A stretch of 64,000 bases of DNA from Streptomyces ficellus (GTDB taxonomy: Bacteria; Actinomycetota; Actinomycetes; Streptomycetales; Streptomycetaceae): NCBI RefSeq assembly GCF_030406405.1, contig NZ_JAUEPL010000003.1:62001-126000 (forward strand), given 5' to 3'. The translations under genes were made by a program, and so were the position numbers. Shown one piece after another: positions 435 to 11,176 of the stretch (positions are counted from its first letter, which is position 1; each line of letters opens with the position of its first letter). The notes beneath the pieces were generated by a model. That model did not search any database. It was given only the letters and a program-made list of their open reading frames with translations, and was not told where the DNA came from.

Positions 435-914
435 TTACGGGGTGCCGCGCCCCGAGCCCCCGCGCTGTGAGACGAGGGCGTCGCGGATCTCCTTGAGCAC
501 CTCCAGCTCGGTGACTTCCAGGGTTTCCTCCACGCCCTTCTTCTGCTTCTCCAGTGCCGCGCGCCGCGCCAGGTACTTGGCCATGGGCAGCACCATCAGG
601 AAGTAGACGATCGCCGCGGTGATGAGGAAGCTGAGCGTGGCGCTGAGCACCGAGCCCCACAGGATTGTGACGCCGCTGACGACCTCCCCACTGGCGTTCA
701 CCTCGCACGGGCCCTTCAGGCAGGCCCGGTAGCCGTCCAGGTTCTGGGTGCCGAAGGCGCCGACGATCGGGCTGATCACTCCCTTGACGATCGCGTTCAC
801 GATGTTGGTGAACGCGGCGCCGATGACCACCGCGACCGCCAGGTCGATCACGTTCCCGCGCATGAGGAAGGCCTTGAAGCCCTCCAGCAAGCTCTGATTC
901 TTCTCCTGGCTCAC
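435..914 (-). CDS. mscL: Large-conductance mechanosensitive channel MscL
   Basis: MscL forms a homopentameric pore in the membrane that opens under tension and releases solutes during hypo-osmotic shock. The protein begins (M)SQEKNQSLLEGFKAFLMRGN, continues with the TM1 motif DLAVAVVIGAAFTNIV, a periplasmic loop with two Cys, TM2 (SFLITAAIVYFLMVLPM) and a charged cytoplasmic helix. At about 159 residues it is near the usual family size with a somewhat longer tail. Two adjacent GTG codons lie at 917 and 914; AAAGG is 7 nt before the second, so 914 was chosen. An upstream ATG at 953 has no ribosome binding site. It is monocistronic, facing the small disordered gene. Confidence 0.95.
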   Translation of the reverse strand: MSQEKNQSLLEGFKAFLMRGNVIDLAVAVVIGAAFTNIVNAIVKGVISPIVGAFGTQNLDGYRACLKGPCEVNASGEVVSGVTILWGSVLSATLSFLITAAIVYFLMVLPMAKYLARRAALEKQKKGVEETLEVTELEVLKEIRDALVSQRGGSGRGTP

Positions 915-1025
915 CACGGTGCCTTTCGTCGCATGTGCAGTTGGCGGAGCCATTAGGCCGTGCGCCGCACACCACCGTCCAATCCGTGCACAGCGAAAGG
1001 GGACGTGACAGGCAAACGGTGCGGC

Positions 1026-1853: not shown

Positions 1854-2717
1854 TCACGGCAGTTCGATCCCCAGGTCCCAGCCGTCGTGCACCCGCGTGC
1901 ACAGGCACGAACGGCTCTCGGTCTCGGGCAGCGCGGCGACCGCGTCGAAGAGCACCTCGCGCAGCCGTCCCACGTTCTCGCCGAACACCCGCAGCACCTC
2001 GGTGTGCGAGACGCCGTCGCCCGTCTCCGCGCCCGCGTCCAGATCCGTGACCAGCGCCATCGACGTGTAGCAGAGCCCCAGCTCGCGGGCGAGCAGCGCC
2101 TCGGGGTGCCCGGTCATGCCCACCACCGACCAGCCCATCGCGGCGTGCCACTGGGACTCGGCCCGGGTCGAGAAGCGCGGGCCCTCTATGACCACCATGG
2201 TCCCGCCGTCCACCGCCTCCCAGCCCCGGCCGTGCGCCGCGGCCAGGGCGACCTTGCGGCCGTCGGGGCAGTAGGGGTCGGCGAAGGAGGTGTGCACGAC
2301 GTTCGGCACGGTGCCGTCCGGCAGCGGCTCGCCGTCGAAGAACGTCTGCGTGCGCGCCTTCGTACGGTCCACCAGCTGGTCCGGTACCAGCAGCGTGCCC
2401 GGTCCGTACTCCGGCCGCAGCCCGCCCACCGCGCACGGCCCCAGCACCTGCCGTACGCCGGCCGAACGCAGCGCCCACAGGTTGGCCCGGTAGTTGATCC
2501 GGTGCGGCGGCAGATGGTGGCCGCGCCCGTGCCGGGGCAGGAACACGACCCGCCGCCCGGCCAGCTCACCGAAGAACAACGAGTCGCTCGGGCTGCCGTA
2601 CGGGGTGGTCACCTCGACCTCGGTCACGTCCTCCAGGAAGGAGTAGAACCCCGAGCCGCCGATGACCCCGATGTCCGCGCCGTTCCCTGCGTTCCCTGCG
2701 TTCCCTGCGTTCGCCAT
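1854..2717 (-). CDS. mtnP: S-methyl-5'-thioadenosine phosphorylase family
   Basis: A purine-nucleoside phosphorylase-fold enzyme, 287 residues, that splits 5'-methylthioadenosine with phosphate to adenine and methylthioribose-1-phosphate, salvaging purine and methionine sulfur from polyamine and AdoMet metabolism. Visible family motifs: IGVIGGSGFYSF near the N-terminus (phosphate loop), LPRHGRGHHLPPHRINYRANLWAL, ACAVGGL-like VLGPCAVGGL, IEGPRFSTRAES, and GMTGHPEALLARELGLCYTSMALVTDLDAG (base-binding Asp region). The start at ATG 2717 places a short NAGNAGNAGN leader before the fold, encoded by a 9-bp repeat. It may prefer another nucleoside; MTA, inosine and guanosine enzymes share this fold. 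It sits downstream of fmdB but beyond a terminator. Confidence 0.9.
   Translation of the reverse strand: MANAGNAGNAGNGADIGVIGGSGFYSFLEDVTEVEVTTPYGSPSDSLFFGELAGRRVVFLPRHGRGHHLPPHRINYRANLWALRSAGVRQVLGPCAVGGLRPEYGPGTLLVPDQLVDRTKARTQTFFDGEPLPDGTVPNVVHTSFADPYCPDGRKVALAAAHGRGWEAVDGGTMVVIEGPRFSTRAESQWHAAMGWSVVGMTGHPEALLARELGLCYTSMALVTDLDAGAETGDGVSHTEVLRVFGENVGRLREVLFDAVAALPETESRSCLCTRVHDGWDLGIELP
2682..2708. repeat. 9-bp tandem repeat, three units, in frame
   Basis: Three perfect copies of gttccctgc directly after the start codon of the methylthioadenosine phosphorylase gene, encoding (AGN)n on the minus strand. The unit length preserves frame, so copy number could vary without inactivating the enzyme. 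Confidence 0.85.
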
Positions 2718-2818: not shown

Positions 2819-3160
2819 TCAGGCGGCGGTGCTGGAGCTTCCGGCCGTGCTCGACGTCGCGGACTTGGCCTTCGCATCCGAGGACGAGGAGCCCGACGAC
2901 GAGGAGTCCGAGGACGAGCTGGACGCGCTCGACGCGGCGGATCCGTTCGCCGGCTTCGATGCGGGCGTGCTGCTCGACGACGAACCGCGGCTGTCGTTGC
3001 GGTAGAAGCCGGAGCCCTTGAAGACAATGCCGACGGCGGAGAACACCTTCTTCAGGCGTCCCTGGCAGCTCGGGCACTCGGTCAGGGCGTCATCGGTGAA
3101 CTTCTGCACCGCCTCGAGGCCCTCGCCGCACTCGGTGCACTGGTACTGGTAGGTCGGCAC
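2819..3160 (-). CDS. FmdB-family zinc-ribbon protein, likely heat-shock regulated
   Basis: 113 residues. The N-terminal 55 residues are a FmdB/CxxC zinc ribbon (PTYQYQCTECGEGLEAVQKF...LTECPSCQGRLKKVFS...GIVFKGSGFYRNDSR) with two CxxC pairs that should bind one zinc. The rest is a Ser/Ala-rich low-complexity tail. The name comes from a regulator of formamide/amide genes; most members are of unknown function and may bind nucleic acid or protein. GTG 3160 was chosen because AGGAGG lies 7 nt before it. A CIRCE operator directly abuts this ribosome site, which predicts HrcA control and heat induction, an inference from the site alone. Confidence 0.85.
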   Translation of the reverse strand: MPTYQYQCTECGEGLEAVQKFTDDALTECPSCQGRLKKVFSAVGIVFKGSGFYRNDSRGSSSSSTPASKPANGSAASSASSSSSDSSSSGSSSSDAKAKSATSSTAGSSSTAA

Positions 3161-3171
3161 TTGTCTTCCTC

Positions 3172-3198
3172 CTGGCACTCTCACTCGATGAGTGCTAA
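3172..3198 (-). promoter_or_regulatory. CIRCE element (HrcA operator)
   Basis: Read on the minus strand the site is TTAGCACTC, nine bases, GAGTGCCAG. The CIRCE consensus is TTAGCACTC-N9-GAGTGCTAA, so the first half is perfect and the second has two mismatches; spacing is exactly nine. It lies in the presumed 5' leader of the FmdB-family gene with its last bases merging into the AGGAGG ribosome site, the usual CIRCE position between promoter and start codon. Confidence 0.85.
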
Positions 3199-3228
3199 CG
3201 ACAGTCCATACTGACGTATTCCGCTGGA

Positions 3229-4641
3229 TCAGTCCACCGTCACCGGCACGCGGTGACCGACGCCACGTGCCACGGTCCGGCCCGCAGGGCGCGGAGCCAG
3301 CCGCGACCGGAGCGCCACCAGGGTGGTCAGCGCCAGGGCCGTGCCGGCCAGCGGTACCAGGAAACCGGCGCTCGCGCCGTATCCGTCCGCGAGCCGGCCG
3401 GACACCGTCACGGCGGCAGCCTGGCCCAGCGCCACGGCGCCGGTCAGCCAGGTGAACGCCTCGGTACGGGCGGACGCCGGCACCAGGGACTCGACCAGCG
3501 TGTAGCCGCTGATCAGGGCCGGCGCGATGCACAGGCCGACGACCAGGCCCAGGGCGCCGAGCAGGGCCACGGAGTGCACGGACCACAGCAGCGAGGCGGC
3601 CACGGTCAGTCCCGCGTACCCGAGGACCAGCCGGTGCCGGGGGCCGCTCTTCCAGGCGATGGCGCCGACGGCGAGGCCGGCCAGCATGTTGCCCGCGGCG
3701 AAGAGCCCGTACAGCAGGCCGTTCATGCCCGGCTGGCCGATCTCCTCGGTGAACGCGGTCAGCGAGACCTGCATACCGCCGAAGACCGATCCGATGCCCA
3801 GGAAGGCCACAGCCAGGACGCGCACGCCCGGCACGGACAGGGCGGAAACGCGCTCCACGCGCGCGTGGGCACCGGCGGCGTACCCGTGTGCGGGCTGAGT
3901 ACCGCGCTGCGCGGCGAACAGCAGGCCGCCGGCCAGCGTCAGCGACGCTTCGGCGATCAGGCCGGCGGCCGGGTGGACGCCGGTGCACAGGGCGGTCGCC
4001 AGCACGGGGCCCACCACGAACGTGAACTCGTCCGTCACGGACTCGAAGGCCGCCGCCGTCGACATCAGCGGGGAGCCCTCCAGCTTCGCGGCCCAGCGGG
4101 ACCGCACCATGGGCCCGACCTGCGGCACGGAGGCGCCGGTCGGCACCGCCGCCGCGAACAGGACCCACAGGGGGGCATCGGCCAGCGCCAGCGCCGTCAG
4201 CGCCGACACCGACACGGTGTGCACCAGTACGCCGGGGACCAGGACGGCACGCTGTCCGAAGCGGTCGGCGAGCTTGCCGCTCTGCGGCGCGAACAGGGCC
4301 ATGGAGACACCGGTGAACGCCGCGACGGCGCCGGCGCTGCCGTACGAACCGGTGGTGTGCTGCACCAGCAGGACGATGCCGATGGTGAGCATCGCGAAGG
4401 GCTGCCGCGCCGCGAAACCGGGCAGCAGGAACGTCCAGGCGCCGGAAGTGCGCAGCAGCTGCCCATAGCCGGGACGCTTCCCGGAAGCCCCGGAAGCCCC
4501 GGAAGCCCCGGAAGCCCCGGAAGCCCCGGAAGCCCCGGACGACGCCGCCGCGCCGGATGACGCGGAAGCCCCGGTTGACGCCGGAGTCCCGGGCGTCGAC
4601 GCCCCGGACGTCGAAGCGTCAGAAGTGACCGTGGATGCCAC
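3229..4641 (-). CDS. Major facilitator superfamily transporter
   Basis: 470 residues with about twelve hydrophobic segments in two bundles, a pattern of MFS drug or metabolite exporters. The loop after TM2 reads LFAPQSGKLADRFGQRAV, a clear variant of the MFS motif G-x-x-x-D-R-x-G-R-R. The first 65 residues are an unusual Ser/Gly/Ala-rich cytoplasmic leader with SGA repeats encoded by a 9-bp minisatellite. The start at GTG 4641 has AGAAAGG 8 nt upstream; the upstream ATG at 4740 lacks a ribosome site. The substrate cannot be read from the sequence. It is monocistronic and its stop lies 30 bp from the CIRCE site of the neighbouring gene. Confidence 0.88.
   Translation of the reverse strand: MASTVTSDASTSGASTPGTPASTGASASSGAAASSGASGASGASGASGASGASGKRPGYGQLLRTSGAWTFLLPGFAARQPFAMLTIGIVLLVQHTTGSYGSAGAVAAFTGVSMALFAPQSGKLADRFGQRAVLVPGVLVHTVSVSALTALALADAPLWVLFAAAVPTGASVPQVGPMVRSRWAAKLEGSPLMSTAAAFESVTDEFTFVVGPVLATALCTGVHPAAGLIAEASLTLAGGLLFAAQRGTQPAHGYAAGAHARVERVSALSVPGVRVLAVAFLGIGSVFGGMQVSLTAFTEEIGQPGMNGLLYGLFAAGNMLAGLAVGAIAWKSGPRHRLVLGYAGLTVAASLLWSVHSVALLGALGLVVGLCIAPALISGYTLVESLVPASARTEAFTWLTGAVALGQAAAVTVSGRLADGYGASAGFLVPLAGTALALTTLVALRSRLAPRPAGRTVARGVGHRVPVTVD
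4483..4536. repeat. 9-bp tandem repeat, six units, in frame
   Basis: Six perfect copies of ggaagcccc, encoding SGASGASGA on the minus strand in the cytoplasmic N-terminal leader of the MFS transporter, just before its first membrane segment. Confidence 0.9.
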
Positions 4642-9510: not shown

Positions 9511-10170
9511 TCAGTCGCCGTAGCCGTCCGTGGGCCGGAAGTGGAGGGTGACCTCCGGGGTGACCACCGTGTGCACGGGGTGGTCGTGCGGTTCCTCCGG
9601 GACCCGCGCGACCACCTCGTTCGCGTACAGCAGCACCACCAGGGCCGGATCGGTCCCCGCCCGTACGATGCGGGCCAGCACCCGGTCGTACGAGCCGCCG
9701 CCCCGCCCGAGCCGCATGCCCCGCGCGTCCACCGCCAGGCCCGGCAGCAGCACCGCGTCGGCCTCCAGGACGGCGTCCACGCCCAGCCCGGGCCCCGATG
9801 GCTCCAGGAGCCCGCGCCGGGCCCGTACGAGCCGCTCGGCGCCCTCGTAGGCCGCCCAGTCCAGGTCGTTGTCCTCCAGCAGGACCGGCAGCAGCACCCG
9901 TACGCCCCGCTCGCGCAGCGCGTCGAGCAGCGCCCGCGTGCCCGGTTCGCTCCCTATGGACACATATGCGGCGACCGTGCGGGCCCGGCGCAGCTCGGGC
10001 AGGTGCAGGGCCGTCCGCGTCAGGGCCGAGGCCGCCTCCTGGACGTCAGCGCGGGTCAGCCGCGCGCGGGCGGCGAGGAGTTGGCGCCGCAGAGCGGTCT
10101 TCTCGGGCACGCCGCCGGACCTGTTGACGGTCGTGTCGCCGGTCGTGCCACCGGTCATGTCGCCGGTCAT
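9511..10170 (-). CDS. 5-formyltetrahydrofolate cyclo-ligase
   Basis: About 219 residues. Catalyses ATP-dependent conversion of 5-formyl-THF to 5,10-methenyl-THF, returning stored folate to the active pool. Motifs: basic KTALRRQLLAARARL N-terminal helix, AAYVSIGSEPGTRALLDALRERGVRVLLPVL, and the ATP/phosphate-binding stretch LPGLAVDARGMRLGRGGGSYDRVL, which is the family signature. The N-terminus is long; ATG 10170 gives a TGD-repeat leader and has only a distant purine run upstream, so the true start may lie further in. It is divergent from galU across 94 bp containing an 11-bp inverted repeat. Confidence 0.88.
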   Translation of the reverse strand: MTGDMTGGTTGDTTVNRSGGVPEKTALRRQLLAARARLTRADVQEAASALTRTALHLPELRRARTVAAYVSIGSEPGTRALLDALRERGVRVLLPVLLEDNDLDWAAYEGAERLVRARRGLLEPSGPGLGVDAVLEADAVLLPGLAVDARGMRLGRGGGSYDRVLARIVRAGTDPALVVLLYANEVVARVPEEPHDHPVHTVVTPEVTLHFRPTDGYGD

Positions 10171-10201
10171 GGTGAATTCGCGAACCTCTCTTATGTGTCC
10201 A

Positions 10202-10242
10202 TATGGGAAGGAAGTTAACCGGAAGCTCATCTCCTTCCCATA
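10202..10242. promoter_or_regulatory. 11-bp inverted repeat in divergent galU/cyclo-ligase promoter region
   Basis: Arms tatgggaagga (10202-10212) and tccttcccata (10232-10242) are perfect inverted repeats separated by 19 bp. The site lies 23 bp before galU and 32 bp before the cyclo-ligase start. It could be an operator for a dimeric regulator controlling both genes or a leader hairpin for galU. No regulator is encoded next to it. Confidence 0.5.
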
Positions 10243-10264
10243 CCGACCGGATATGGTGCTCGGC

Positions 10265-11176
10265 ATGACTCAGTCGCACCCCAGGATCAGCAAGGCTGTC
10301 ATCCCCGCCGCAGGGCTCGGCACCCGGTTCCTGCCGGCCACGAAAGCCACTCCCAAAGAGATGCTTCCTGTGGTCGACAAGCCCGCCATCCAGTACGTGG
10401 TCGAAGAGGCCGTGGGGGCCGGTCTCACCGATGTACTGATGATCACCGGCCGCAACAAGCGTCCGCTCGAGGACCACTTCGACCGGAACTACGAGCTGGA
10501 GGAAGCCCTCGTCAGGAAGGGCGACCAGGAGCGGCTCGCCAAGGTCCAGGAGTCCAGCGACCTGGCCACCATGCACTACGTCCGCCAGGGCGACCCGCGC
10601 GGCCTCGGGCACGCCGTCCTGTGCGCCGCCCCCCACGTCGGCAGCGAGCCGTTCGCCGTCCTCCTCGGCGACGACCTCATCGACCCCCGTGACCCGCTGC
10701 TGTGCCGGATGGTCGAGGTCCAGGAGCGGGAAGGCGGCAGCGTGATCGCGCTGATGGAGGTCGATCCGGCCCAGATCCATCTCTACGGCTGCGCTGCCGT
10801 CGAGCCGACCGGCGACGCCGACGTCGTGCAGGTGACCAACCTCGTCGAGAAGCCCGACCCGGGCGACGCGCCCAGCAGCTACGCCATCATCGGCCGGTAC
10901 GTCCTGGACCCCGCCATCTTCGCCGTACTGCGCGAGACCCAGCCGGGCCGTGGCGGCGAGATCCAGCTCACCGACGCCCTCCAGAAGCTCGCCGCGGACG
11001 AGAGCATCGGCGGCCCGGTGCACGGCGTGGTCTTCAAGGGCCGCCGCTATGACACCGGTGACCGGGGCGACTATCTGCGGGCCATTGTCAGACTCGCGTG
11101 CGAACGTGAAGATCTGGGACCGGAGTTCCGGAACTGGCTTCGCAGTTACGTCACCGAGGAGATGCAGGGACTGTGA
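10265..11176 (+). CDS. galU: UTP-glucose-1-phosphate uridylyltransferase
   Basis: 303 residues. Makes UDP-glucose from UTP and glucose-1-phosphate, feeding wall polymers, glycogen-like and trehalose synthesis and, with galE/galT elsewhere in this window, the Leloir pathway. The nucleotidyltransferase signature KAVIPAAGLGTRFLPATKATPKEMLPVVDKP is present at the N-terminus, followed by IQYVVEEAVGAGLTDVLMITGRNK, LLGDDLI and NLVEKPDPGDAPSSYAIIGRY. ATG 10265 has no clear ribosome site (only GGATATGG upstream), so a leaderless or near-leaderless mRNA is possible; ATG 10253 is the alternative. The stop overlaps the moeA start by 4 nt, so the genes are co-transcribed. Confidence 0.95.
   Translation: MTQSHPRISKAVIPAAGLGTRFLPATKATPKEMLPVVDKPAIQYVVEEAVGAGLTDVLMITGRNKRPLEDHFDRNYELEEALVRKGDQERLAKVQESSDLATMHYVRQGDPRGLGHAVLCAAPHVGSEPFAVLLGDDLIDPRDPLLCRMVEVQEREGGSVIALMEVDPAQIHLYGCAAVEPTGDADVVQVTNLVEKPDPGDAPSSYAIIGRYVLDPAIFAVLRETQPGRGGEIQLTDALQKLAADESIGGPVHGVVFKGRRYDTGDRGDYLRAIVRLACEREDLGPEFRNWLRSYVTEEMQGL

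Follow-up and report, generated by a model that had tools for sequence, protein, structure and literature searches.

A CIRCE-type operator overlapping a predicted SigR-type promoter precedes the ruc orthologue of Streptomyces ficellus

In Streptomyces ficellus, a conserved CIRCE-type operator for the repressor HrcA stands directly before a small FmdB-family zinc-ribbon gene, orthologous to the gene of the mycobacterial redox chaperone Ruc, and overlaps the -10 element of a predicted SigR-type promoter. We consider it very probable that this site is the operator-promoter of Streptomyces ruc, where HrcA would block transcription, stress would lift the block, SigR would initiate and the product would act as a redox-regulated holdase. 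The window to which coordinates refer (Table 1) is the whole stretch of DNA that was analysed, 64,000 nucleotides in length.

Table 1. Features of the ruc region and their coordinates in the window.
Feature	Position	Strand	Basis or remark
CIRCE-type HrcA operator (predicted), TTAGCACTC-N9-GAGTGCCAG	3172..3198	-	sequence, pattern search, conservation
Operator, left arm TTAGCACTC	3198-3190	-	
Operator, spacer ATCGAGTGA	3189-3181	-	
Operator, right arm GAGTGCCAG	3180-3172	-	
Ribosome-binding site AGGAGG	3168..3173	-	overlaps operator by two bases
SigR/SigH-type promoter GGAAT-N18-GTT (predicted)	3197..3222	-	motif search, fixed geometry
Second conserved block GTGGACTGA	3229-3237	-	
ruc orthologue, FmdB-family zinc ribbon, 113 aa, GTG start	2819..3160	-	profile matches, cysteines, synteny
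mscL, conserved ruc neighbour	438..953	-	PF01741; synteny
5-formyltetrahydrofolate cyclo-ligase (5-FCL), conserved ruc neighbour	9514..10266	-	PF01812; synteny
Phosphorylase gene after ruc	1857-2717		

The operator agrees at 16 of 18 positions with the CIRCE consensus, which we take to be the inverted repeat TTAGCACTC-N9-GAGTGCTAA, the form also given in the preliminary description, and it is followed on the minus strand by GAGGAAGACAA and then by the GTG at 3160-3158. When the window was searched for the full palindrome with up to three mismatches, this was the one match, against 0.01 expected from shuffles (a match was obtained in 1 of 100 shuffled windows). The preliminary description had reported a minus-strand site with 16 of 18 matches and exact spacing, merging with the ribosome site of the gene; its sequence and coordinates proved exact, and the merging corresponds to the two bases shared with AGGAGG.

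Within the genus the site accompanies the gene. The protein was found in 98 of 101 genomes, the CIRCE core joined to the protein start likewise in 98 of 101, and the operator in all 98 that have the gene, the three genomes that lack protein and site alike being 79%, 82% and 99% complete. Conservation before orthologues across Streptomyces, which had been proposed as a check on the site, is thus clear. Column by column, the named loci compared were the best 80 of 581 confirmed relatives, all of them Streptomyces, Kitasatospora, Mangrovactinospora or Actinacidiphila, which presumably share the family Streptomycetaceae. In these best 80 of 581, the 18 arm columns are all invariant and 8 of the 9 spacer columns vary, and the columns of AGGAGG are 99-100% conserved.

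The gene product scores above the cut-off with both TIGR02605 (72.7 bits, cut-off 31.3) and PF09723, Zn_ribbon_8 (56.1 bits, cut-off 34.4), in agreement with its earlier assignment to the FmdB-family zinc ribbons, a family named from a formamidase gene regulator system. Its N-terminal zinc ribbon holds two CxxC pairs (Cys 8, 11, 29 and 32), present in 96 of the 96 relatives translated, one genome per non-Streptomyces genus, and is followed by a tail that by eye is hydrophilic, rich in Ser, Ala, Thr, Asp and Lys, and probably disordered. The positions of these cysteines equal the Cys numbers in the names of Ruc mutants that appear in passages of PMC7448276. Two 19-kb Mycobacterium-like stretches (family f4) also carry ruc, and the protein there contains FTDDALTTC-E/A-KCSGRLRKLF, closely resembling the Rv0991c peptide encoded by published primers. 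The neighbours of ruc common to the window and both Mycobacterium-like loci are mscL, the 5-FCL gene, a GalU-like gene, MoeA, GNAT and a MoCF-domain gene; five window genes (the one at 1029-1844, the phosphorylase, an MFS transporter, an antiporter and an acylase) had no match in the two 19-kb stretches. Taken together, cysteine positions, shared neighbours and peptide likeness identify the window gene, at the level of sequence, as the orthologue of M. tuberculosis Rv0991c/Ruc. Tandem repeats were also observed in the region, at 1562-1659 in the coding region beside mscL (15-bp unit) and at 4480-4592 in the stretch encoding the N-terminal part of the MFS transporter (9-, 18- and 36-bp units).

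The -10 GTT of the predicted promoter (3199-3197) shares two bases with the start of the operator, a feature that the preliminary description had overlooked. Motifs of this type have 2 matches in the window against 0.24 expected, and the ruc promoter fits the consensus GGAAT-N18-19-GTT that passages of PMC9205884 give for SigR and its thiol-stress regulon in S. coelicolor; it also agrees with the SigH consensus GGAAYR-N17-GTT of PMC4803200. Among the best 80 of 581 relatives, the exact geometry is kept in 77, the exceptions being N19 in one locus, a motif one base further upstream in another and GGAAA in a third, while the looser GGAAN-N18-GT occurs anywhere before the operator in 78 of 80. 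A variant with N15, found in 69 of these best 80 of 581, is due to another GT lying three bases upstream. In the same Streptomycetaceae loci the columns of GGAAT and GTT reach 96-100% conservation. Given the overlap of -10 and operator, competition for one spot is predicted between HrcA and the thiol-stress sigma factor SigR. The genome also has rsrA, with one match above the cut-off of the RsrA model and two below it; RsrA is the anti-sigma factor of SigR. The sharing of two bases between a SigR-type -10 and the HrcA operator of Streptomycetaceae ruc is apparently new: no report of a SigR/HrcA overlap in Streptomyces was found among the papers listed, tables of SigR genes may contain a prior mention, and the S. 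coelicolor SigR regulon passages of PMC9205884 name no ruc orthologue, which its gene tables may still include.

Across the class, the Ruc protein was found in 235 of 246 genomes and in 97 of 103 genera. The strict pattern of CIRCE core plus protein start was present in 22 of 22 same-genus genomes and in 24 of the 224 others of the class sample; many sites outside the genus read GCAGTC or sit further from the start, and this pattern is too strict to measure presence there, therefore a looser upstream score was applied to the 150 bases before the start in one genome per non-Streptomyces genus with the protein (n = 96). The scores have two peaks, 77 of the 96 genera showing 15-18 of 18 matches and 19 showing 12 or fewer. 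Control windows further upstream (192) had a maximum of 12, none attaining the site score of 15 or more, and 480 shuffles, which preserve base composition only, a maximum of 13. The distance from operator to start in these other genera ranges from 9 to 95 nt. Beyond the class, the strict pattern, taken alone and gene presence aside, was found in 1 of 109 genomes of the phylum's other classes.

Loss of hrcA was considered as the cause of the 19 operator-less genera and rejected. A search of 80 genomes, comprising all 19 without the operator and 61 of the 77 with it, returned an HrcA match in 79; the sole exception (G224) is 86% complete and has the operator, and two of the 19 (G124 and G312) match the HrcA model partially. 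All 19 also hold CIRCE-like sites with up to two mismatches elsewhere. Since HrcA matches and CIRCE elsewhere are kept, these lineages seem, from their sequences, to have dropped or never had the ruc operator while retaining the repressor. With one genome per genus, ruc and an HrcA match without CIRCE were observed in genera g25, g71, g76 and g96 of family f25, in g60, g67 and g90 of f36 and in g55, g77 and g86 of f33. As for the SigR-type motif, it lies near the operator in 5 of the 77 site-bearing loci outside the genus, two of the five in family f4, against 1 of 672 control windows. On this count, the idea that the whole class has dual SigR/HrcA control was rejected.

Would the operator act through the SigR-type promoter, or through another one? 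HrcA might instead control ruc by way of a housekeeping-type promoter further upstream, CIRCE blocking that other start and the SigR-type motif being inherited or of minor use. The second conserved block, GTGGACTGA, could possibly be such a promoter, although this identity is a guess; counted back from the operator, its start is at -39 in 70 of the best 80 of 581 loci, and two others have it at -40. Outside the genus, TGGAC at -29/-28 is found in 21 of the 77 site-bearing loci, with A at -4 in 82%; it is commoner there than the SigR-type motif and is perhaps a housekeeping-type promoter. A passage of PMC7448276 also mentions, for M. tuberculosis, a second start 19 nt upstream. The columns of GGAAT and GTT, with a spacing fixed in 77 of the best 80 of 581 loci, would nonetheless be hard to explain without use, and we judge control through an upstream housekeeping-type promoter to be unlikely.

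Far less credence can be given to a palindrome acting in RNA, as a 5' hairpin that masks the ribosome-binding site or adjusts the stability of the mRNA, HrcA being secondary. The operator arms are able to pair in the transcript and the right arm touches AGGAGG, but the RNA fold does not surpass that of shuffled sequences (z = -0.36; equalled in 67 of 200), the ground on which a hairpin hiding the ribosome site was rejected, and AGGAGG itself lies outside the hairpin, two of its G pairing elsewhere in the minimum-energy fold and none in the centroid. Transcription from the SigR-type promoter would, moreover, begin within or after the left arm, the arm sequence is invariant beyond mere pairing in the best 80 of 581 loci, and distances to the start as varied as those of the other genera also speak against an RNA hairpin. 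That the palindrome arose by chance and has no function, to which the two positions deviating from the consensus might lend some colour, has a negligible probability and is rejected on conservation: within the genus the operator accompanies the gene in all 98 genomes that carry it, and it is present in 77 of 96 other genera; in addition, 0.01 matches were expected in the window.

The operator-promoter reading of the ruc site also agrees with the rest of the genome. Over the whole 6.33 Mb, the palindrome search with up to three mismatches gave six sites (12 rows, both strands), and the reversed-pattern control over the same 6.33 Mb gave none. Two of the sites lie before groES (Cpn10), two before a chaperonin-60 gene (Cpn60), one before hrcA and one before ruc. 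The genome has hrcA, with one HrcA match (E 1.5e-58). The CIRCE before hrcA, at 4176-4202 of contig C15 (L010), has three mismatches and suggests that hrcA may repress itself. GGAAY-N17-19-GTT is absent at the genome's three other CIRCE-bearing regions, searched from 120 bases before each site. A genuine CIRCE, conserved before orthologues, makes membership of the HrcA regulon the best reading for ruc, and in this part the preliminary interpretation holds.

We propose that in unstressed cells HrcA bound to CIRCE would cover the -10 and the start, blocking the overlapping SigR promoter. Heat or protein damage would cause HrcA to leave CIRCE, thiol oxidation would free SigR from RsrA, and RNA polymerase carrying SigR would then initiate from GGAAT-N18-GTT. 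Once their cysteines were oxidised, Ruc molecules would become holdases and support refolding by DnaK, a function presumed by orthology to Ruc. In a bolder form of this proposal, on which we are evenly divided, the ruc promoter would be a one-spot HrcA/SigR gate giving full output only on the joint arrival of heat-type and oxidative signals; the class would have inherited HrcA control from its ancestor, and the overlap with SigR would have been acquired later and retained in Streptomycetaceae and in Mycobacterium-like lineages. The presence of the site in 77 of 96 genera suggests that HrcA control of Ruc may be a broad actinobacterial trait, extending beyond mycobacteria. The analysis joins two literatures, one on the zinc ribbon that genomes annotate as FmdB-family and one on the mycobacterial redox chaperone Ruc, and offers a likely function for a gene present in 98 of 101 Streptomyces genomes. 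Streptomyces ruc provides a defined promoter, open to testing, on which the responses to heat and to thiol stress may converge.

The preliminary description had called the role of the protein unknown and knew of no report linking it to HrcA; neither point is supported. Passages of PMC7448276 describe Rv0991c (Ruc) as a protein that binds zinc, has a disordered tail, acquires chaperone activity upon oxidation and supports refolding by DnaK, and place its gene among four under direct HrcA repression in M. tuberculosis, the one orthologue for which binding by HrcA and derepression on heating were found on record. The same source, in part, reports induction by SigH, and an excerpt of PMC4803200 tabulates Rv0991c, with a value of 40.3 +/- 12.2, under SigH-dependent transcription, while according to a passage of PMC8557902 rv0991c-rv0990c is an HrcA-controlled operon. 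The main text of the Ruc paper (PMC7448276) nowhere uses the name FmdB, which may be how the link could escape notice. No paper with both FmdB and CIRCE was found; among titles and abstract starts, nothing relevant on FmdB and Streptomyces appeared, nor any report of HrcA control of Streptomyces ruc. The connection of ruc with HrcA is, however, already known from M. tuberculosis, and what the window shows is known biology in its Streptomyces form.

Compared with the chaperonin genes and hrcA, which form the HrcA/CIRCE regulon, the ruc site has the same operator sequence and spacing; groES and groEL have two CIRCE sites each whereas ruc has one, and the targets of the chaperonin regulon are chaperonins whereas the ruc product is a presumed redox holdase. 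With M. tuberculosis Ruc the window gene has in common the zinc ribbon, the cysteine positions and the neighbours. The gene following ruc differs, being Rv0990c, directly downstream in M. tuberculosis (PMC7448276, in part), and the phosphorylase gene in the window. Overlapping HrcA and SigH sites before the start codon are published for M. tuberculosis ruc in a passage of PMC7448276, and the overlap of HrcA and SigR-type sites in Streptomyces is its predicted counterpart. The arrangement in detail is not the same: GTT stands immediately ahead of the operator in both Mycobacterium-like loci, whereas the Streptomyces GTT shares the first two bases of the operator, and, as compared with those two loci, the Streptomyces operator merges with the ribosome site.
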